A program made the position numbers and the translations under genes. From Candidatus Poseidoniaceae archaeon (GTDB lineage: Archaea > Thermoplasmatota > Poseidoniia > Poseidoniales > Poseidoniaceae), in assembly GCA_949372875.1 (NCBI GenBank), contig CASIAW010000002.1:103658-167657 (forward strand): a stretch of 64,000 nucleotides of DNA. The letters run 5' to 3'. The notes below the pieces were generated by a model that saw nothing but the letters and a program-made list of their open reading frames with translations, searched no databases and was not told the origin of the DNA. Positions 43,927 to 56,314 of the stretch are shown piece after piece (positions within the stretch are counted from its first letter, which is position 1; each line of letters opens with the position of its first letter).

Positions 43927-46900
43927 TCATTCATTCGCCATTTCACCTTCATATGTCTGCGTCAAATAGGTGACAAGACCAAGCAAAACAGCGGATGCGA
44001 TGAGAATCGCTAACAACACTTCGACTGCTGCGCCCTGAATGATAACGACGCTCGCAACAATCCAACTCAACACAAGATCGAGTGCACCAACAACACGCCA
44101 AGATTTGCGAAGCGTAAGAACGCCACTTACCCAAGAAACGGTTGATGCCAAAAGAATGAGTAAGACTGCAAATAACAGATTACCGTAGCCGAAACTTGAA
44201 CCAATGAGAAGCAAGTGTGTCGCCCACAATCCAGCAGGTAGCCACAATCCTTGGCGGTTTTGAACCGCCCATGCTACGAAGAGTGTCGAAAGAAGTCCGA
44301 GAGTTGTAGCGATAACAGAGGTCGAAGGCAGCCCCAGTGAGAGCGAGTCGGTCAACCAAAATGCTGCTGATTGATATACGAATGGCGTCAACAGCCACGC
44401 CATGAGAACAACAGCAGGTTGTAACCACCACACACCTCGGCGTGCCGAGAGGGCAAGGGCGGCAATACCTGCTGGTCCGAACGAAAGCATTGCTATCGCC
44501 GCCATCCAGAGAGAACGGCCGCCTGCACCTCGATGATCCGAAAGGCCATGATGAACCCGTTTTCCTTCAACCCAATCAAAGGCTAAAACTGCAAGAACAG
44601 CAAGAAGTTCTATGGTGACAAGAGGAACCACCCATTGAAGGAGAGTTCCTTCAAATGGATTCATTGCGAACGGAAGCGGAACTTCCCCTCCAACGACGAT
44701 GCAGATTAATCTATCAAAAGCGGCCAGATAAACAACGCCTTCCAAGGCATTTGGAATACGCATACCCAAGTCATTACGGCCGAGAAGCCCAAGACCGGCA
44801 AGCATGCTGAGTCCACCGATGAACACAAGAAGATGTGAAGCGTTTTCCAACTCTACGACAGAGTTCGATGCACGCCCTGCAACGTGAACGAGAACTAAAC
44901 CTGCCATCCCAAGTGCAATCGGGGCTTCAATGCCGAGAATATCGGGGAGTCTCAAACCAATTTGATTTGCCCGGATACGTGAAAGGCCAACAAATAACAT
45001 CGAAACTAAAACGCTGAATGATAATGCAAAAAGTGTTGAGCCCGTCGTAAACGAGTAGAATGTCGTAGCAAGAATTGTAGTTCCCAAAAACAGCATTACA
45101 ATGGTTGGTTGATGATGAATATCGCCGATGTGTAAATCATGTTGACCCGTTGAGCCGGAGCGCTTTTGCCGCTTACGTTGCTTTTCTGCAAGCGTCAAGA
45201 GTTCTGTATCGATGAGGCGGAGGTTTGAGCGAGGAGTGGACGGTGATTCATCTCCTTGTTCCACCTCCATTGCCGACGCACTTTCTTGGGTTACCATTCC
45301 TGAAGAATCGATAAAGGCCTGGATACGTTCTTGTTTCTCATTGAGTCGCTTCAACCGGTTTTCTTTCTTGGTTAAAGCCCGTAATCCGGCTCTAAACTCA
45401 CCCTGTATAGCGAGGTATGCGCCGGAGCCGACAAAAGCCAGAACCGCCGCTAAAACAACCAACTCAACGGCAACTGATTGACCCGCCAAGGCCATCGAAA
45501 TAATGAGGGCAATCGCACTTACTGCTGGAGGGAGGAGTTTCTCAAGTGTAGCAGCGCGAAGAAGGTACAGGACCAGTGAAACAAGTCCAATCACCATCAA
45601 GAACAGGAGGTTTGTTTCTTTGTCGAGCATGTGTTCTGTTCCAGTCAATGGCGTGGTCGTGAGTGGATTCAAAGCAATCATCACAAAGAATGCCGTCATG
45701 AAGCCCATCATCATGGTCAAAAGTTGCCCAGGGAGCGCTTCCATGCGTTCCAATTCGCTTTCGGAAGCTCCCTTTTCTCGCCTATGGTCGGACGCTTTCA
45801 GCAGGATTCCGGAAGAAAGAACAAGTGAGAGTGCCCAAAACGAAGATTGCCCATAATTCCATGAAAGAAGGAGAGCAAAAATACCCCAGAACGTCATCAA
45901 GGTCTGCGGTTTTCCAAGGTGTCGGCCAAAATAAACCATCAAAGCATGGCCGATAAGTAAACTTCCAAGGATTATGACTACCCCATACATCGGTAAAGCC
46001 CCTGGTCTGACAATTGCCCAGGTTACGATGACTGAGAATATGAAACTTAGATTCCATAGTTTAGCAAGCCCAGAATCTCGGAGCCGGGCCCCGACTTCTG
46101 AGAACCCAACCAATCGCGCGGCGAGATTCAATCCAACTTCACCATGACGAACATTAACCCATATTTGCTGAACAACTAGGAGGCACATCCATCCGAACAA
46201 ATCAAATTCTTCGATTGAAATTGGGATGAAATCGGTTGAAATGATTCGTGAATCTGCATCGGTGGCAAACAACAGGAGCCAAACCCAAGGGCCGAGCACT
46301 GCCGTTCCTGCAATGGATGGAGATGAACGATAAACGGCTAATCCTGAAAGGCCGATCCAAACAATTCCTTGGGTGATTAACAGTAATCGCGCACCACTAT
46401 CGGAGTTTCCTGCCGGAATTAGAAGAGTCAGTAAAACGACAATAGCAAGGCCGCCAAGCCAAATTACATGGTCGGAAACTGATGTCTGGTTTCGTAAAAG
46501 GGCGAGTACGGTGAAAAAGGCTGTGAGTGCTGCATAGAGGCTGTAACCATCTAAATTAAGAGGCAACGTAAGGTCAATAGCGCCAGAAGAATAAATTGAA
46601 AGGCCGATCAAGAGAACCGGTGCAGGGAAGATAATGTAGGGTGCTAATTTCTTGATATCGACGCCCCGGACAACCAAATACGAACCGCTAAATGCCGAAA
46701 TTAAGAGAACCAGTTGGGCGAGAGCGTATCCCGTTTCCAACCGATTTGCCGCAATTGCCAGAAGGGCGCCAATCATCCCAAGGCCGACAGAAACAGACCA
46801 AAGGGCAGGCTTTCCAAGCCCCATCGATTCAAATGCTTTCGAGAACCAATTTTCTGCTCGGACGAAACGTGCTGCCATGGTGGCATTGGTCGCTGTTACC

Positions 46901-47838
46901 ATCGTCATCAGCAAGAACAAAAGTAATCCATCTTCGAAGGGAATAATCTCGAGTCCAAATACGGCCCAGTCATTTGAAAGTGCATGAATTCCAACCCAAA
47001 GATACGAAGAGGCAATTCCAAGGCTGGCGAGATTACCGGATTGACGATACATAGCAAGTCCGTGCATGAGCAGTGTACCCAATGCAACCATTGCTGCTAT
47101 GCCAAGCTCTCCATACAGTGCACCTGTGGCACTTCCAACCAGCAAAAGAATCAAGGTGGCTTGAGCCGCGATAGCATCTTCATCATGGCGTTGTGCAATG
47201 AAAATATTGAGAGATACTAAGCCGACAAGACTCACACCTAACGTTTCACTTGCGCCGAGAGGCGATGCATCAAACCAGCCCCAGTGCCAAGCATCAAGAG
47301 CAAGTCCATAGAAGAGTTTCATAGAAATAATGACCCAGGTGACGCCAAGGAGCCGCATATTCGGATTTGGAATCCAGCGCTCTCCGAGATAGAGGCCGAA
47401 CACACCCATTGCAAACAAACCGAGTCCACTGGGAACTTCGGGAAGTACCGTACCGACAATCGCTCCAATTGCGGACCACGTGAGTACCATGGCGATTAAA
47501 AGGCCGAAACTCAATCGTTTCTCGCCATGTACTGCCATGTCGGTAACGCTGTCCATTTCCGATTGTTTCACAACAGTGCCATCTTCCTGAATTGCCCCCG
47601 GGGCGAGGTGATCTTCCTCCCCAGATGAAAACAAAGAGACGACTTCTCCAACGGCGATGTCTTCCACTTCCTTGGAAGTTGGAAGAGCAGTATCGGCGGG
47701 TTGCTCTTCCGGAGATTGAACCATAAATGATTGAATGTCGACACCTTGAGCACGTTGAAAATCTCGTTTTCGCACCACCTCATCTCTTGGAGGGGAGGGA
47801 GTTTCTCCGGATGTTGCGTCCTTCGACTCCTCAGTCAT
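43927..47838 (-). CDS. 1303-residue multipass membrane protein
   Basis: The protein has a soluble acidic N-terminus (about 1-108), then roughly 30 hydrophobic segments grouped in three blocks (about 110-520, 540-830 and 920-1300). A cytoplasmic linker with charged, coiled-coil-like sequence (TKKENRLKRLNEKQERIQAF, AEKQRKRQKR) lies at about 840-915. There is no ATPase, transporter signature or known active-site motif. The frequent Gly, Leu and Trp-rich helices resemble DUF2339/DUF2157-style polytopic proteins of unknown function. It could be a large membrane scaffold or channel. It is divergent from the PEP carboxykinase gene with about 190 bases between. Confidence 0.78.
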   Translation of the reverse strand: MTEESKDATSGETPSPPRDEVVRKRDFQRAQGVDIQSFMVQSPEEQPADTALPTSKEVEDIAVGEVVSLFSSGEEDHLAPGAIQEDGTVVKQSEMDSVTDMAVHGEKRLSFGLLIAMVLTWSAIGAIVGTVLPEVPSGLGLFAMGVFGLYLGERWIPNPNMRLLGVTWVIISMKLFYGLALDAWHWGWFDASPLGASETLGVSLVGLVSLNIFIAQRHDEDAIAAQATLILLLVGSATGALYGELGIAAMVALGTLLMHGLAMYRQSGNLASLGIASSYLWVGIHALSNDWAVFGLEIIPFEDGLLLFLLMTMVTATNATMAARFVRAENWFSKAFESMGLGKPALWSVSVGLGMIGALLAIAANRLETGYALAQLVLLISAFSGSYLVVRGVDIKKLAPYIIFPAPVLLIGLSIYSSGAIDLTLPLNLDGYSLYAALTAFFTVLALLRNQTSVSDHVIWLGGLAIVVLLTLLIPAGNSDSGARLLLITQGIVWIGLSGLAVYRSSPSIAGTAVLGPWVWLLLFATDADSRIISTDFIPISIEEFDLFGWMCLLVVQQIWVNVRHGEVGLNLAARLVGFSEVGARLRDSGLAKLWNLSFIFSVIVTWAIVRPGALPMYGVVIILGSLLIGHALMVYFGRHLGKPQTLMTFWGIFALLLSWNYGQSSFWALSLVLSSGILLKASDHRREKGASESELERMEALPGQLLTMMMGFMTAFFVMIALNPLTTTPLTGTEHMLDKETNLLFLMVIGLVSLVLYLLRAATLEKLLPPAVSAIALIISMALAGQSVAVELVVLAAVLAFVGSGAYLAIQGEFRAGLRALTKKENRLKRLNEKQERIQAFIDSSGMVTQESASAMEVEQGDESPSTPRSNLRLIDTELLTLAEKQRKRQKRSGSTGQHDLHIGDIHHQPTIVMLFLGTTILATTFYSFTTGSTLFALSFSVLVSMLFVGLSRIRANQIGLRLPDILGIEAPIALGMAGLVLVHVAGRASNSVVELENASHLLVFIGGLSMLAGLGLLGRNDLGMRIPNALEGVVYLAAFDRLICIVVGGEVPLPFAMNPFEGTLLQWVVPLVTIELLAVLAVLAFDWVEGKRVHHGLSDHRGAGGRSLWMAAIAMLSFGPAGIAALALSARRGVWWLQPAVVLMAWLLTPFVYQSAAFWLTDSLSLGLPSTSVIATTLGLLSTLFVAWAVQNRQGLWLPAGLWATHLLLIGSSFGYGNLLFAVLLILLASTVSWVSGVLTLRKSWRVVGALDLVLSWIVASVVIIQGAAVEVLLAILIASAVLLGLVTYLTQTYEGEMANE

Positions 47839-50216: not shown

Positions 50217-50399
50217 CTAAGGGTAGCGTTCAACATGACCCACCCAGAGCCCTTCTGAATAAGCGTTTTGTTTAGAAGGGCGTTTAGCATAACCCTCGTA
50301 AACATAAGCAAACCACTTGTTCACTTGTGATTCGAAACATATGCGGCCGATCACTGTTGGCAATAAACCATAAACGCCTCCGGCGGAGCGTAATGCCAT
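50217..50399 (-). CDS. Possible small protein antisense to the lipoprotein start
   Basis: A 60-residue frame from ATG at 50399 fills an otherwise empty 189-base gap. Its composition looks coding: aromatic-rich, with FESQVNKWFAYVYEGYAKRP and GLWVGHVERYP. It shares the palindromic CATG with the lipoprotein start, so both ATGs overlap. No family is recognised. It could also be chance, so confidence is limited. Confidence 0.4.
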   Translation of the reverse strand: MALRSAGGVYGLLPTVIGRICFESQVNKWFAYVYEGYAKRPSKQNAYSEGLWVGHVERYP

Positions 50400-52218
50400 G
50401 GACACTCAGCGCGCACTCCTAATTACACTGGTTTTACTTCTTTCAAGCATAGCCGGTTGCTTTGGTAGTGAACAAGAACTGGAAGAAGAATTTGATCTCA
50501 ACACGGAAGAACGAACCCTGTTGGGAATGGGTGACTCTGTCATGGAATGGAACAGGGAAGACGCCTCGACCATCCCGGAGGTCGTGGGAGAGGAAGCAGG
50601 GTTCGCAGTGCTGAACAACGCCGAAAGTGGTGCCAAAGTCATCGAAGAGAGTTACGCTATTCCTTCTCAGTTCGTCGAACAAAATTGGGATTGGGTCATC
50701 ATCAACGGTGGGGCAAACGATGTGGATGGCTACTGCGATGAAGATGAGGGGGCCGTTCTTGATGCAATCATATCTGATGATGTTTCACAAGGTGACATGG
50801 TGGATTTGGTCAATAAGGTCTCAACCTTCGCAAAGCACGTGATGCTTGCATCCTACTATGACATTCCGTCTGATTCAGAGAGCATGGTTGGCTGTGAAGC
50901 GGTCATGGAAGAGATGGAGCTTCGCTATGAAGCCCTTGCCAACACCCTTCCTAACGTTCACTTTTTCGACATGGGAGACGCTATTACACCCAGCAACCGT
51001 GAATATTACGACGAAGACTTACTTCACCCGTCCCCCGATGGATGCGTTGCTATTGGCATGATGATGGCAGAACGCATTCTGGAAATTGAAAGTACAGCCC
51101 GTCAGTCAGATTCTTTTGTGACGCTTGATCCACTCGAAACGGTCTTCAACGGCATGAATTACGATGGCAATTACTACTATGCGGAAGCAGAATGGGTTGT
51201 ACACGATCCTTCTGAAATCGTGGAAATTGATGGTATGTTGATGATTGCCAACACGGGAAAGGGGCAAGAAGATGGCTATAATTGCGGTCTAGAAACATGG
51301 TACATATTCCCCAATGAGACCTCCTTTAGCCCAGGTCAATGCCTGTTGAGCGAAAAGCCAGCATGGGTGTCCCAATCTGTTTCAAGCAACGATGGTGCCT
51401 ATTGGGCTCCAGGATTCTTGGATGCCAGAACCATGTATTACACCGTTCCAGTTGGCAATGCAATGGGCAATCCAGACTCAACTGAATCGTGTATTGGAAT
51501 GATCAAAGCCACTGGAACTGCTCCAAATTTGGTTTGGACAGATCACGGATCGCCGATTCTTTGCCAGCCGCTTGGTGAAGCGAATACCGACGAACCTGAA
51601 CCACCGGCTTTGGACCCTGCAACAATTACTGATGATGACGGCCGAACCTATCTCATCTACGGTGGTGCCCACATATGGATGACTGAAGTCAATTCGACAA
51701 CTGGTGAGCACCTCACCGGTGAAGATTGGGATAACGGTGCTTCGGGCACCTTTGTTCATCTGGCAAATGGCCCCCTCGATCCAGAAGCCGAAGAGGATAC
51801 ATGGACAGAAGCCGCCTACATTCACAAACAAGGCGACTTCTACTATCTCTTTGTCAACTGGTTCAGATGTTGTGGAGGTCCAGAATCAACCTATGAGATC
51901 TATGTTGGTCGTTCTACAACCATCGACGGGCCCTATGTTGATGCAAACGGAGTTTCGATGCTTGAGGGTGGAGGCACATTGGTCATGGATCGAACATCAG
52001 GGTACATCGGTCCCGGCCACCCTTCAATTTTCATACACGGGGACACTCAGGTCTTTACTCATCACTTCTACCCAGATGGTGGCGATGAAGAAGAACCTTG
52101 GACTGACGGAATTGCTTGGGCTTTCATTCAAGCGAACACACTGACTTGGAGTGAGGAAGGCTGGCCAGTGGTCGGTGGGACTTGGGATCCAATGTCCTAT
52201 TGGAACACAGCAAACTGA
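50398..52218 (+). CDS. Secreted lipoprotein: SGNH/GDSL esterase fused to GH43 endo-arabinanase-like domain
   Basis: The 606-residue protein has a lipoprotein signal ending SIAGC (Cys21), then an SGNH hydrolase domain (about 38-235): Asp46-Ser47 in GMGDSVMEW, Asn107 in INGGANDV, and Asp207/His210 in DEDLLHPS. The C-terminal domain (about 240-606) is a five-bladed GH43 propeller of the arabinan endo-1,5-alpha-L-arabinanase type: HDPSEIV (Asp270, base), YWAPGF, LDPATITDDDGRTYLIYG (Asp406), EAAYIHKQGDFYYLFVNW (Glu471, acid) and the CCGGPESTYEIYVGRS hallmark. All catalytic residues are in place. It probably deacylates and cleaves arabinan-containing polysaccharide at the cell surface. Other GH43 substrates remain possible. 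Confidence 0.88.
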   Translation: MDTQRALLITLVLLLSSIAGCFGSEQELEEEFDLNTEERTLLGMGDSVMEWNREDASTIPEVVGEEAGFAVLNNAESGAKVIEESYAIPSQFVEQNWDWVIINGGANDVDGYCDEDEGAVLDAIISDDVSQGDMVDLVNKVSTFAKHVMLASYYDIPSDSESMVGCEAVMEEMELRYEALANTLPNVHFFDMGDAITPSNREYYDEDLLHPSPDGCVAIGMMMAERILEIESTARQSDSFVTLDPLETVFNGMNYDGNYYYAEAEWVVHDPSEIVEIDGMLMIANTGKGQEDGYNCGLETWYIFPNETSFSPGQCLLSEKPAWVSQSVSSNDGAYWAPGFLDARTMYYTVPVGNAMGNPDSTESCIGMIKATGTAPNLVWTDHGSPILCQPLGEANTDEPEPPALDPATITDDDGRTYLIYGGAHIWMTEVNSTTGEHLTGEDWDNGASGTFVHLANGPLDPEAEEDTWTEAAYIHKQGDFYYLFVNWFRCCGGPESTYEIYVGRSTTIDGPYVDANGVSMLEGGGTLVMDRTSGYIGPGHPSIFIHGDTQVFTHHFYPDGGDEEEPWTDGIAWAFIQANTLTWSEEGWPVVGGTWDPMSYWNTAN

Positions 52219-52783: not shown

Positions 52784-52867
52784 AAGTAGGATGTTTTTCA
52801 TTCCACAGGCTATCCATGGAAACACCGAGGACAATGAAGACATACTAAGCGATGAGAAAGACATACG

Positions 52868-53791
52868 TCATGCGTTTGCCAACCCTAGGTTGGTCCGCAT
52901 TCGCTCAAGATGGGCATGAACATGTTCGACGAAAAAGCCGTGCATTAGGAAACGATAGGAAAGCCCTGTTGGGCCAACGAGAATCATTGGGAAACGATTG
53001 TGTGCAAGGTCTGCAAAATGTGCAGAACCTACAATTTCATCTATTCGTAGACCGACAGAATGATCGAATTGGAACGAGTTAATCGCGGCCTCGTATTCCT
53101 TAGCAGTGAGCCAAAAACAAAAGGTTGTCTTGAACAACTCATGAGCTGTTTCGAAGTCGAGAAATTGAGTCCACTTCTTTTTGCTCGATGAGTATTGAAT
53201 ATCGACAGGCGCCCAATTCTTCCATTTCAAATCTTTTTCTGCAACGGGCCAGTTTTCACCTTTCATGTCCCCCAAATCGCGCATTGTCATGAGGACGCCT
53301 TGATCGTGGTGGACAAATGTTTGAACCATCAAATCTTGGATGACCTTGGGATAAATCAAAACGGGTTCAACTCCCTCCTTGCCTGAATTATCAATCACGA
53401 AATTGAGGAGGTTACTTTCGGTTTGAAAATGCCGAAGTATCAAGATATTCGCTTCTGGTCGAACAAAATACTTCATGAAAAAGCAAATCTGCCATTGGAG
53501 GAATCTGTGGGCTCGCCACTGAATTGGTGACAAACGCTTGAGGTAATACGTAATGTGAAGCGTGATACTAAGCAATACTTTCAGAGTCGGTAAAATAACC
53601 ACCCTCAATGGGTTTTGTAAATCTTTGAGCCAGTATTCTTTCGCTTCTGAATCCAATGGAAGACTGTCGTCTCCTCCGAGTGCATCACTCAGTGATGCTG
53701 GCATTCTCCCGTGGTTCTTTGCCAATGCTTTCTCGAGACGACGTTGGGCACGACGTTCTTTCCGAGGCAAAGGCGCTTCACTGGACGTCAT
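52868..53791 (-). CDS. Unknown basic protein, fourth gene of the KAS III operon
   Basis: The 307-residue product starts MTSSEAPLPRKERRAQRRLEKAL, a basic helix, has a possible membrane-associated segment at about 72-95 (VVILPTLKVLLSITLHITYYL), and a soluble domain with EANILILRHFQTESNLLNFVIDNSG and TFVHHDQGVLMTMRDLG. His residues cluster near 160 and at the C-terminus (GFFVEHVHAHLERM). I recognise no family. It starts inside the end of the diiron gene (overlap about 14 bases), so it is translationally coupled with that operon and probably acts in the same pathway. Confidence 0.72.
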   Translation of the reverse strand: MTSSEAPLPRKERRAQRRLEKALAKNHGRMPASLSDALGGDDSLPLDSEAKEYWLKDLQNPLRVVILPTLKVLLSITLHITYYLKRLSPIQWRAHRFLQWQICFFMKYFVRPEANILILRHFQTESNLLNFVIDNSGKEGVEPVLIYPKVIQDLMVQTFVHHDQGVLMTMRDLGDMKGENWPVAEKDLKWKNWAPVDIQYSSSKKKWTQFLDFETAHELFKTTFCFWLTAKEYEAAINSFQFDHSVGLRIDEIVGSAHFADLAHNRFPMILVGPTGLSYRFLMHGFFVEHVHAHLERMRTNLGLANA

Positions 53792-54527
53792 ATTCGACTT
53801 CCTCCAGTTGTAATCGATAAAGTCGGGCAACGACTTTGGCTGTTTTCACAATGCTCTTGATTGCCTCTTCATTGACACAAACGCTGTCAAGAGTAGCGTA
53901 AAATCGCTGCATGTGCTCACTGTCATTGTGACCATGATACGTCATAAAGCGTGTTGAGTCCTCCGTAAGGCCCGTCAATTCTTGAATACGTTCTGCCCAA
54001 GAATGGGCCATCTTTTCACCAAGGCCTTCGATAATCCACATGGCACCAAGTAAATCGATTGGGTTGGTTCGGGAAGAGCGGTGCATGAGGAATCCGTGCA
54101 GTGCCTCTGAACCGATGTTTTTCTCCATGTTGAGAATATCTTCAAGTTGCCCGCCAGATGCAACATAATCTTTCTCAAGCATTTCATAGTCTCGATGTTC
54201 ATCAACAGCATGGCTGATAATTGTCGAGCGGATTTCCGAATGGTTGCGGTCGAAACTGCTTGCAGTTCGAGTAATCCAGCGGGAGCCTTCAATCACTTGT
54301 TGGCGCAAATTTCTCAAAAACACTTGATGGTCTTCTGCAGTGTATGTGCCTAAATCGATACGGCGAAGAAGAGGCACTTTGGATAGGTCTCTCTCGAATC
54401 CAAGCCAAACGCGTAGAAGGTGTTGGAGGCAGACTTGAGCATGCGGATTCAATACAATCCCTTCCGGCATGCTTTCTTCACTCGAAGCAGGAGCTCCACC
54501 TTCAATCTGTATCTCACCATCGTTCAT
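53778..54527 (-). CDS. Haem-oxygenase-like diiron protein (iron-containing redox enzyme family)
   Basis: The 249-residue helical protein matches the haem-oxygenase-like diiron oxidase (HDO) superfamily, whose members catalyse N-oxygenation, desaturation or C-C cleavage. Likely iron ligands are Glu80 (IEGSRW), His106/Glu110/His111 (HAVDEHRD), Glu167 or Glu171 (IEGLGE), and His198-Asp202-His205 (YHGHNDSEH), in the expected helix spacing. It overlaps the upstream KAS III gene by four bases (ATGA) and is followed by the unknown basic protein. Context suggests it acts on an acyl chain or its product. Substrate unknown. Confidence 0.83.
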   Translation of the reverse strand: MNDGEIQIEGGAPASSEESMPEGIVLNPHAQVCLQHLLRVWLGFERDLSKVPLLRRIDLGTYTAEDHQVFLRNLRQQVIEGSRWITRTASSFDRNHSEIRSTIISHAVDEHRDYEMLEKDYVASGGQLEDILNMEKNIGSEALHGFLMHRSSRTNPIDLLGAMWIIEGLGEKMAHSWAERIQELTGLTEDSTRFMTYHGHNDSEHMQRFYATLDSVCVNEEAIKSIVKTAKVVARLYRLQLEEVEYDVQ

Positions 54528-55660
54528 TCATTCACCACCGTTAATTGGAGATACGTCGTATTGAAACGACCGCTCTCCGGAACAAAACAAAGTACTTTGT
54601 CCCCTACCTTCACCGAAACTTCATCGGTACGTAAAAATTCATCAAGCATTATGAAAAGTGAGGCTGCACCTGTATTTCCGCGGGTGTAAAGGTTGGTCCA
54701 CCATCGCTCTTCAGGAATTCCGACGCCTGCTGTATGAAGCATTTCAAGAATTTTATTCCTAAAGTGGTGACTGGAATAATGGCACAAGAAATGATCGACT
54801 TCACTGGGCTTACTGACACCTTCCTCGACCAAACGAAGGTATCCATCGACGCCCATTCGCATCAAGTTGTCAAGAAGTCGGACATCTTGCCGTAAAAGAA
54901 GCGCTCCGTCTTGTTCAGCCTGAGCGTATGTATCGTAATCTTGCCATGTGCGAGCATCATCTGGACGACCGGCTGAACCAACACTCATGCATGTTGGAAG
55001 TGCATGCGCATGAGAAAATCCTCGAATCCAGTCGATTCGTAAGCTGAGGCCTTTGGGGGCTGGTTTGTTTTGAAGGAGTAATGCACCTGCGCCGTCTGAA
55101 AGCATCCAGCGAAGAAACTCGGTGCTGAAATCAATCCGCTTTGCAGCAAAAGTCGAGGTTGTTGCAGCCTCATAACGTTGCTTTTTGAGAAGGCGGCTTG
55201 CCAGTTCGCTGGAGAGAACCAACGCTGCTTCATGTTCTTCGAGTCGAAGACTGTTCCATGCCGCTTTCAAGGCCATGATCGAGGATGAACAGATTCCGTG
55301 GGTCGTGAGAATTTCTATTTCAGGCAGTTCTAATTCCGCTTGAACCATGCTCGCCATACCTGGTGCGGGAAGGTCCCCTTGAGTTGATGCAACCGCTAAC
55401 ATGCCCACCTTTTCTCTGGTAATGAACGCTCGGTCAAGACACTGTTCTGCAGCATTTGTTGCCATTTCCGTATTACTATGCGTTGTTTGTTGTTGTTCAT
55501 CAATCGCATAATGCCGAGTTTCAATCATGTTCGCTTTTTGAATCTGAACTCGGAGAGATGAGGGTTTTCCATGGACTGCTCCAAGAACGTTCTCCACTTG
55601 ATCAACAGCGATTGGAGGGCCTGGCAAAAAGGAGCCTGTGCTGGTAATGTAGACGCTCAT
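54524..55660 (-). CDS. 3-oxoacyl-ACP synthase III-like (KAS III / FabH family)
   Basis: The 378-residue product is a thiolase-fold condensing enzyme. The catalytic triad is Cys124 (THGICSSSIMALK), a His near residue 287 (FLCHYSSHHF) and an Asn near 319 (RGNTGAASLF), all conserved. KAS III enzymes condense acyl-CoA or acyl-ACP with a malonyl unit. Archaea do not normally make fatty acids this way, so this is more likely specialised metabolism. The gene overlaps the upstream membrane gene and the downstream diiron gene by four bases each. Confidence 0.88.
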   Translation of the reverse strand: MSVYITSTGSFLPGPPIAVDQVENVLGAVHGKPSSLRVQIQKANMIETRHYAIDEQQQTTHSNTEMATNAAEQCLDRAFITREKVGMLAVASTQGDLPAPGMASMVQAELELPEIEILTTHGICSSSIMALKAAWNSLRLEEHEAALVLSSELASRLLKKQRYEAATTSTFAAKRIDFSTEFLRWMLSDGAGALLLQNKPAPKGLSLRIDWIRGFSHAHALPTCMSVGSAGRPDDARTWQDYDTYAQAEQDGALLLRQDVRLLDNLMRMGVDGYLRLVEEGVSKPSEVDHFLCHYSSHHFRNKILEMLHTAGVGIPEERWWTNLYTRGNTGAASLFIMLDEFLRTDEVSVKVGDKVLCFVPESGRFNTTYLQLTVVNE

Positions 55661-56232
55661 GCAGTATCCTCCCTGCCAAGATTCCGCTCATAAGACCAAC
55701 AACGCCACCATTCTTGCAGATAAGGGCCTACAACCAAAACGGACATTGTAACGATGTAGATTGCTGCGTAATTCCCAGTTACTCCTAGAGGCTCTTGTCG
55801 CCATTGTAACGAGAATCCCCCCGCCCAGTCAAAAGTGACGAGGTCAAGGAAAACTTCCCACTTGCGAACAATAATCAAGAGAATAAGGAAAAAGGGCAAG
55901 GTTGCTAGATAGTTGTGAGCATGGACTTCCCAGATACTGATTTCTCTTTTCCCAGTGGTGAAATGTACGTCATAATGGGCAATAAATTCATGGGCGATAA
56001 GCGCTGCAAAGCACAGAATGAGTATCAAAACATTGACTTCAAAGATAAGAGAAAGTACCAATGGAAGACCAATTTGTGCACCCATTAGGCAATGGATATA
56101 GGCTTCTCGTAGCCCAGATGTGGCTTCGATGTTGGTCTTCTTATGACACCACCAATCAAGCATACTTGCAATTCCCCAAAGCGGCAAGAGTACGTAGAGA
56201 ATTACATACAAGACGAGCGCTGCTTCATCCAT
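55657..56232 (-). CDS. Membrane protein with conserved His motifs, first gene of the KAS III operon
   Basis: The 191-residue protein has four or five membrane helices. Several His residues flank or lie between them: DWWCHKK near 26, an AHEFIAHYDVHF cluster near 85-96, and IWEVHAHNYLATLP near 105. Such clusters recall membrane diiron hydroxylases and desaturases, but the spacing does not match a known one. Similar small membrane proteins beside KAS III and diiron genes occur in bacteria, as I recall. GAGGGGG precedes the ATG. It overlaps the KAS III gene by four bases. Confidence 0.75.
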   Translation of the reverse strand: MDEAALVLYVILYVLLPLWGIASMLDWWCHKKTNIEATSGLREAYIHCLMGAQIGLPLVLSLIFEVNVLILILCFAALIAHEFIAHYDVHFTTGKREISIWEVHAHNYLATLPFFLILLIIVRKWEVFLDLVTFDWAGGFSLQWRQEPLGVTGNYAAIYIVTMSVLVVGPYLQEWWRCWSYERNLGREDTA

Positions 56233-56266
56233 TTCGTATCCCCCTCAAACCTTTCTACTGCTCATG

Positions 56267-56278
56267 GGATAAAAAGCC
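56267..56278 (-). promoter_or_regulatory. Candidate TATA element of the KAS III operon
   Basis: GGCTTTTTATCC on the minus strand lies 35-46 bases before the operon's first ATG (56232) and after the T-tracts that follow DP2, consistent with an own promoter. Confidence 0.4.
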
Positions 56279-56286
56279 AATTCCGG

Positions 56287-56312
56287 AAAAAAAGAAAATT
56301 GGTCGTAAAAAA
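56287..56312 (-). terminator. T-tract terminator after the DP2 gene
   Basis: On the minus strand two T-runs (six and seven T, at 56307-56312 and 56287-56293) follow the DP2 stop within about 30 bases, as in archaeal intrinsic termination sites. Confidence 0.5.
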
Positions 56313-56314
56313 CA

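Follow-up and report, generated by a model that had tools for sequence, protein, structure and literature searches.

Gene Content and Organization of the Operon

The analyzed window, 64,000 nucleotides of a Candidatus Poseidoniaceae contig, contained four overlapping genes on the minus strand. The first, mem (positions 55657–56232), encoded a His/carboxylate-rich membrane protein of 191 aa. It was followed by genes for a StlD/DarB-like ketosynthase (54524–55660; 378 aa), a heme-oxygenase-like dimetal oxidase (HDO; 53778–54527; 249 aa; PF14518), and a DUF6999 protein (52868–53791; PF22523). The DUF6999 protein was taken as 307 aa from an ATG, the open reading frame (ORF) list placing its start upstream at an in-frame TTG (53830). 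Overlaps of 4, 4, and 14 bases, as reported in the initial annotation, were borne out by the ORF coordinates. Upstream, an 82-base gap with visible T-runs (56233–56314) separated the operon from a gene identified by Pfam as DNA polymerase DP2. A scan for sigma-70 promoters and terminators (7 against 6.3 expected and 5 against 3.9, respectively) was set aside as promoter evidence, being uninformative for archaea, whose promoters it does not cover. The TATA-like element named in the initial annotation is at most a candidate promoter.

The mem and ketosynthase genes were spaced at −4 in 37 of the 42 archaeal loci measured, the ketosynthase and HDO genes at −4 in 36 of 42, and the HDO and DUF6999 genes at −14 in 35 of 42. 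The bacterial mem/ketosynthase spacing was −4 in 26 of 32 loci measured. Coupling of the operon genes is kept across two domains, counted over loci that include related and hence non-independent genomes.

Just downstream lay a decayed fifth gene that had earlier been missed: the 59-base start of a subfamily II fatty-acid desaturase (52813–52871, minus strand), with an early in-frame stop and the remainder of the gene gone. This remnant was identical at 48 of 59 bases to the desaturase start at the same place in locus L035, and 0 of 300 shuffles matched as well. Seven subfamily II desaturase starts tested matched the remnant (39–48 identical bases of 49–59); no match was found to the starts from L064, a more distant subfamily II desaturase, or L048 (subfamily I). 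A fatty-acid desaturase directly followed DUF6999 in 33 of 44 archaeal loci, the slot being filled from either of two distant subfamilies (I and II), and the operon unit in archaea is usually five genes, the fifth a desaturase. Nineteen archaeal loci were grouped by a common downstream stretch, which a PF00487 search identified as desaturase. The window genome contained two PF00487 matches. Decay of the adjacent gene may mean that the step has been lost here, that its function is supplied by another desaturase of the genome, or that the pathway is failing.

Among bacteria, a desaturase was present in five of nine further Myxococcota loci and in all six of the Pseudomonadota loci where ketosynthase and HDO are fused, five of which also contained a hydroxylase. 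Only L075 among 34 bacterial loci (L075–L108) had a desaturase within the fetched stretch, so the desaturase is not always beside the operon genes. Ketosynthase was also fused to HDO in L161, Myxococcota locus L162 contained ketosynthase and DUF6999 without HDO, and in L124 an acyl-activating/acyltransferase fusion directly followed DUF6999. The regions flanking 36 bacterial loci held no further universal partner; the largest family there reached 11 of 36, mostly Rheinheimera.

Conserved Features of the Operon Proteins

The ketosynthase matched PRK06816 (StlD/DarB) at 377 bits (E 7.6e-113), below the NCBIfam curated cut-off of 450 bits; all four relatives tested also scored below it (371, 372, and 391 bits, and 311 bits for a fused form). 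By these scores the protein is classed as StlD/DarB-like, not as a filed StlD/DarB member. Its best solved match was StlD (PDB 5gk0; E 6.3e-71, residues 2–376), and the next PDB match other than StlD had an E of 5.8e-10. Against the FabH model TIGR00747 it scored 62 bits and did not reach the cut-off of 292.1 bits. The initial label of KAS III is corrected to a ketosynthase nearest to StlD/DarB (377 bits vs. 62 for FabH), as distinct from an ordinary FabH. FabH, HMG-CoA synthase, and thiolase were each rejected as its identity, their matches being far weaker than that to StlD/DarB.

The catalytic triad, previously described as intact, was invariant in 64 of 64 rows (C124, H294, N329), as were E152 and R184. 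Counted on the alignment, the latter two fall at chain positions 174 and 210 of PDB 5gk0. If that chain carries a 20-residue tag, these positions are StlD E154 and R190, presumably the cyclization pair of StlD. Homology suggests that the operon ketosynthase may likewise form a ring. The operon contained neither DarA, the usual partner of DarB, nor a dedicated ACP gene. A DarA-like query had no match in 15 of 16 operon genomes, the window genome included; in the other, a Granulosicoccaceae genome (L076), a DarA-like gene lay elsewhere. The query was a Streptomyces protein, unnamed by Pfam and NCBIfam and considered DarA-like only from its appearance and from lying next to a DarB-like gene.

The HDO matched PF14518 at 38 bits (E 1.9e-9), above the cut-off of 28.9. 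HDOs have a metal ligand set of three His and three carboxylates (PMC13108848). The initial annotation had called this set intact; E80, E167, H198, D202, and H205 were invariant in 59 of 59 rows, and the set is near-complete, with the remaining His being either H106 (59/59) or H111 (53/59), the two candidates for the sixth ligand.

The DUF6999 protein matched PF22523 at 296.7 bits, exceeding the gathering cut-off of 27 bits. Invariant in 60 of 60 rows were H121, H162, D163, D212, D243, H284, E289, R63, R120, and R280. Its structure model was helical (pLDDT 81) and found no fold match in the PDB. Its identity as a diverged HDO was rejected at a profile comparison probability of 0.1 (percent scale), and a Foldseek likeness to the HDO PolF (TM 0.12–0.16, E at least 1.8) was disregarded. 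No use of the name DUF6999 was found in the literature searched.

Mem had no Pfam match up to an E of 1 and no NCBIfam match; neither PF04116 nor PF00487 was among the matches. Its AlphaFold model (pLDDT 91.5) comprised four membrane-length helices, one short helix, and a long C-terminal helix, and despite this high confidence found no match among PDB folds (best E 1.7). Eleven residues were invariant in 58 of 58 rows, including four stand-alone relatives: D26, H30, E43, H47, H81, E82, D88, E102, H104, H106, and E174. The first and fourth genes had been described as matching no known function, and neither did so here; mem nevertheless has relatives, some of them stand-alone, and the product of the fourth gene falls in the Pfam family DUF6999. 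Genes for cyd oxidase lay near two stand-alone mem relatives; a four-helix copper-binding protein accompanied one of these and a Mn-catalase the other. Mem was also present in 20 plasmid records, of which six regions were fetched.

Distribution and Evolutionary History

In searches with ketosynthase, DUF6999, and mem, ketosynthase and DUF6999 coincided exactly in 24 of 145 Poseidoniales genomes, neither occurring without the other; mem was found in these 24 and as two fragments. Some genomes may be counted both among these 145 assemblies and among the 44 named archaeal loci. All four genes occurred in one order in 77 of the 78 loci found through DUF6999, the remaining locus being cut by a contig end. 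The same gene order was found in Gammaproteobacteria and in Myxococcota, where nine neighborhoods were fetched among 22 genomes with a DUF6999 match. A DUF6999 match was also present in the control genome Caulobacter vibrioides. A viral origin was rejected, a DUF6999 scan of viral contigs having returned no relative.

Archaea formed one clade in each of the four gene trees (SH-aLRT 96–100), and patristic rank correlations between genes were 0.83–0.89. Of 45 archaeal rows, 18 went into each single-gene tree, except that of HDO with 17, and 10 into the concatenated tree. An internal stop or a contig cut led to the removal of some rows (HDO, L040 and L102; mem, L044; DUF6999, L076). After long branches in earlier trees, the four gene trees were built without L124 or the rows from Streptomyces, Prevotella, and Phocaeicola. 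Both the co-occurrence and the joint history of the genes support the initial annotation in viewing the set as a small specialised-metabolite or lipid pathway. Its proposal of transfer from bacteria also fits, since the other layouts and the outgroups seen are bacterial. The concatenated tree forked into archaea, Myxococcota, and Gammaproteobacteria without a settled order, so the direction of transfer is inferred.

Discussion

We give about even odds (roughly 0.5) to the reading of these genes as a biosynthetic operon, shared horizontally, that makes an oxidized ring lipid from fatty acyl thioesters, with a cyclohexanedione or resorcinol as the best reading of the lipid type. We infer each chemical step. 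In the first, the ketosynthase would join a beta-ketoacyl thioester and a 2-enoyl thioester and, judging from homology and conserved residues, close the ring to a 4-carboxy-2,5-dialkylcyclohexane-1,3-dione (the product and two substrates of DarB are given in PMC5515871). In the second, the HDO might replace the missing DarA aromatase, taking the hydrogen beside the carboxylate and expelling CO2, as UndA, the founding HDO, does on fatty acids (PMC13108848); a dialkylresorcinol or dienone would result. This step is an analogy, weakened by the N-oxygenation, desaturation, and rearrangements that other characterized HDOs catalyze (PMC13108848). Membrane iron enzymes would then alter the chains or ring, namely a desaturase in most archaeal relatives and, in some bacteria, a fatty-acid hydroxylase. 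From its position and metal-like residues, mem may be a further metal-dependent membrane oxidase. DUF6999 is a constant partner, perhaps with an additional metal site. Weighing against this reading are the sub-cut-off ketosynthase scores, an operon lacking DarA and a dedicated ACP, the decayed desaturase of the window, the bacterial loci with no desaturase in the fetched stretch, locus L162 with no HDO, the DarA-like gene of the Granulosicoccaceae genome, and the negative fold searches for mem and DUF6999.

Decarboxylation of fatty acids by UndA (PMC13108848) would also suit a different outcome, in which head-to-head joining by the ketosynthase gives a linear beta-keto acid that the HDO oxidizes to an alkene or ketone, making this a hydrocarbon or ketone pathway with no ring. 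Desaturases and hydroxylases suit a linear chain too. However, the ketosynthase is far closer to ring-forming StlD/DarB than to the FabH or HMG-CoA synthase models (OleA lay outside this comparison), and the positions taken as StlD E154 and R190 are invariant, which makes a linear product unlikely.

The source of the acyl chains in the window archaeon could be a PfaA-like type I synthase on another contig, a 3,045-aa KS-AT-ACP-KR-DH protein whose neighbors are relatives of enoyl reductase and phosphopantetheinyl transferase. The presence of this synthase, together with the acyl-activating/acyltransferase fusion at L124 and the bacterial-type lipid genes of Poseidoniales, which are thought capable of mixed membranes (PMC6461757, PMC7852524), would fit an operon that remodels membrane lipids, supplying ester lipids with an acyl group, unsaturated or hydroxylated, and not making a secreted or signaling molecule. 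Such a role is improbable: a ring-forming ketosynthase would be superfluous for ordinary acyl remodeling, the operon is patchy (24/145 genomes) unlike core lipid genes, and the operon-bearing Gammaproteobacteria already own normal phospholipid routes. Protection from oxygen or peroxide by HDO and mem, with the ketosynthase incidental, recalls the HDO DtpC of Acinetobacter, which limits peroxide in dried cells (PMC13232832), and the cyd-adjacent mem relatives, but is very improbable given the ketosynthase-HDO fusions in six Pseudomonadota loci and L161 and the identical sets of Poseidoniales genomes marked by ketosynthase and DUF6999.

Within the ring-lipid reading, a more specific scheme is put forward tentatively as a possible second, DarA-free route to resorcinol-type lipids. 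Oxidative decarboxylation by HDO, together with DUF6999, would aromatize a DarB-type ring acid; mem, representing a membrane metal enzyme of a new class, and the swappable desaturase would finish the product. If this is true, abundant ocean archaea make aromatic lipids via a cassette common to bacteria. The ring reading, if true, would provide an alternative to DarA that can be tested, and point to a chemical trait that could be sought in marine archaea known from metagenomes. The four-gene set, found in abundant ocean archaea and common to certain bacteria, appears to be undescribed, and it ties DUF6999, a His-rich membrane family, and an uncharacterized HDO branch to one conserved pathway in three organism groups. 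Several of its bacterial members (Rheinheimera, Pseudoalteromonas, Halomonadaceae) are strains and not metagenome bins, which allows a direct search for the product.

Among known systems, UndA, SznF, BesC, CADD, and PolF share with the operon HDO the PF14518 family and the E...E...HxxxDxxH pattern, the spacing found in known HDOs. The operon HDO differs in adjoining, or being fused to, a StlD/DarB-like ketosynthase; sections 4 and 11 of a review of HDOs name none acting with such a ketosynthase (PMC13108848). The DUF6999 protein is a clear member of the PF22523 family (E 1.7e-88). StlD (PDB 5gk0–5gk2), the Photorhabdus stilbene ketosynthase, is homologous to the operon ketosynthase over its full length, with the Cys-His-Asn and Glu/Arg positions kept. 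StlD differs in having other partner genes and in using an aryl substrate (PMC5515871). The dar clusters, with DarA, DarB, and DarC listed for Chitinophaga, Flavobacterium, and Azoarcus (PMC3949708, PMC3992019), resemble the operon in using a DarB/StlD-like ketosynthase as the chain-joining enzyme, with fatty thioester substrates implied. The dar clusters carry the DarA aromatase, whereas the operon instead carries HDO, DUF6999, mem, desaturase, and hydroxylase.

Operon layout and gene co-occurrence

The minus-strand operon at 52868-56232 was comprised of genes for a 191-aa His-rich membrane protein (mem), a ketosynthase, a heme-oxygenase-like dimetal oxidase (HDO), and a DUF6999 protein. All four genes lay where the initial annotation had placed them, and their overlaps of 4, 4, and 14 bases were confirmed. 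A DNA polymerase DP2 gene preceded the operon in the window, and the assembly containing the window (G000:C2) totaled 2.16 Mb. The window also contained an ORF (50398-52218) with a GDSL lipase domain fused to a GH43 glycosyl hydrolase domain behind a lipoprotein-like start, and a hydrophobic ORF of 1,303 aa (43927-47838) having no Pfam match.

The initial annotation had expected the four genes to co-occur in many genomes and to share one history, and both expectations were borne out. Three genes were searched separately in 145 Poseidoniales genomes: 24 carried DUF6999, and the ketosynthase marked the identical 24; mem was present in all of these and additionally as short fragments in G006 and G041. 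The order ketosynthase-HDO-DUF6999 was found at 24 of 24 Poseidoniales loci, and within the 145 genomes the operon was confined to the window's family. Seventy-seven of 78 DUF6999 loci from named genomes matched all four genes in one order, the sole exception starting at a contig end; these loci were selected via DUF6999, and the 145-genome test is therefore the fairer one. Operon carriers included: Rheinheimera, Arsukibacterium, Alkalimonas, Halomonadaceae, Shewanella, Vibrio rumoiensis, Endozoicomonas, one Myxococcales bin, and a Pseudoalteromonas plasmid.

Shared history and transfer

The archaea formed a single clade for every gene (SH-aLRT: ketosynthase 100, HDO 98, DUF6999 98, mem 96), and distances correlated between genes at 0.83-0.89 (51 shared rows). 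For DUF6999 and mem, the Gammaproteobacteria grouped together; for the ketosynthase and the HDO, their placement needed two changes, with no starred branch forcing them. A tree of joined ketosynthase, HDO, and DUF6999 sequences recovered archaea (100/100) and Gammaproteobacteria (99/95), left the Myxococcales bin locus (L075) alone, and did not settle the fork among the three. Two more Myxococcota genomes (loci L157 and L158) carried mem-ketosynthase-HDO, so membership of this phylum rests on more than one bin. Within Poseidoniales the operon followed DP2 in one locus group and had different upstream neighbors in the remaining loci; therefore, it moved or was exchanged. Overall, the operon is real, conserved, and horizontally shared.

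Identity of the encoded proteins

The ketosynthase scored 377 bits against the StlD/DarB model versus 62 bits against the FabH model, and StlD was its best solved relative, with a full-length alignment. The HDO matched PF14518 with its ligand pattern retained, and five metal ligands did not vary across all 59 rows. Assignment of the sixth ligand is ambiguous because position 111 was Gln in six fused forms, whereas H106 was universal. The last gene (52868-53791) encoded DUF6999 (PF22523), in which H121, H162, D163, D212, D243, H284, and E289 were invariant (60/60); judged from conservation, these seven residues could form a further metal site.

The mem protein had no match in Pfam or NCBIfam. 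Its AlphaFold model was confident (pLDDT 91.5) and, read with conservation, placed the invariant His, Glu, and Asp residues mostly near neighboring helix ends, which fits a putative metal site at one membrane face. Relatives of mem occurred in 20 plasmid records (Pantoea, Erwinia, Burkholderia, and others). One of six plasmid regions fetched, from Pseudoalteromonas THAF3, contained the whole operon, and the other five contained mem with no ketosynthase, HDO, or DUF6999 inside 7 kb. Some of these relatives on proteobacterial plasmids (L026-L030 among the loci) were close to genes for cyd oxidase, formate dehydrogenase, or Mn-catalase. In several plasmid records they were annotated as diguanylate cyclase, a label that does not suit a 190-aa membrane protein.

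Bacterial layouts and the core genes

DUF6999 was present in 9 of 398 Pseudomonadota genomes, counting the central Alkalimonas genome, and the eight other loci were fetched. Six of the eight contained a fused ketosynthase-HDO of 626-655 aa with an adjoining desaturase, and five of these six also contained a PF04116 hydroxylase. One locus (L125) had the four-gene form. Another (L124) had separate genes; at L124:3600-7940, a 1,133-aa MFS-acyltransferase-AMP ligase fusion came after DUF6999, which suggests that acyl activation or transfer is tied to the pathway.

DUF6999 was matched in 22 of 195 genomes (21 above cut-off) from the Myxococcales bin's phylum. Among nine loci fetched there, a ketosynthase lay near DUF6999 in eight (L160 was cut), an HDO was found in eight (all except L162), and a desaturase in five. 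At L158:1138-5346, mem-ketosynthase-HDO was divergent from DUF6999-desaturase. From the layouts in both phyla, three genes (ketosynthase, HDO, and DUF6999) make up the core, and the membrane iron oxidases that accompany it vary.

A desaturase in the fifth position

Of the 24 operon genomes, at least 13 had a desaturase directly 3' of DUF6999 by PF00487 search. The desaturase came next after DUF6999 in 33 of 44 named archaeal loci; of the other 11, four stopped within 540 bases past the operon and seven had no desaturase. The 33 were comprised of 21 type I and 12 type II desaturases, both PF00487. Among 13 representatives compared, a single cross-type pair was better than E 0.1 (8e-3). Beside core genes in bacteria, type I was found at L118, L122, L123, and L158, and type II at L075, L159, L161, and L163. 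That two distant subfamilies fill one slot argues that the desaturase step matters to the pathway. In the window, the 59 bases after DUF6999 matched the start of the type II gene at L035 at 48 positions, exceeding every one of 300 shuffles; this remnant had an early stop and the remainder of the gene was gone.

Possible acyl source and proposed chemistry

Acyl thioesters in this archaeon may derive from a 3,045-aa PfaA-like type I fatty acid synthase encoded outside the window (G000:C5:58933-68070, equal to L132:8934-18071), with the domain order KS-AT-4 ACP matches-KR-DH. It adjoined relatives of enoyl-ACP reductase and phosphopantetheinyl transferase, and scored 926 bits, below the PfaA cut-off of 1010. 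PfaA-model matches occurred in 91 of 145 genomes, 71 of 72 in the window's family (counted from the list), and 23 of 24 operon genomes. This association is weak evidence because the operon is confined to one family and the model also matched ten control genomes (e.g., E. coli), presumably via the KS domain.

UndA-type HDOs abstract a hydrogen from the position beta to the carboxylate and release CO2. By analogy, the HDO might act on a DarB-type ring acid to yield a resorcinol. UndA is described as a fatty acid decarboxylase (PMC13108848), and DarB as converting beta-ketoacyl and 2-enoyl substrates to 4-carboxy-2,5-dialkylcyclohexane-1,3-diones (PMC5515871). DarA, DarB's usual partner, is listed as the DAR aromatase (PMC3949708). 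Neither the window's assembly nor 14 of 15 other operon genomes searched gave a match to a DarA-like query. The query recovered itself and one 35% relative, in a Granulosicoccaceae genome (G146); therefore, the search works at that distance.

The operon product is most likely an oxidized lipid or polyketide. No paper on the gene set was found among the matches listed, which covered mostly open-access literature, and the name DUF6999 was absent from the literature searched, which included few subscription papers; both absences are provisional. Compared with known systems, the novelty is the gene combination, its component enzyme families being partly known.
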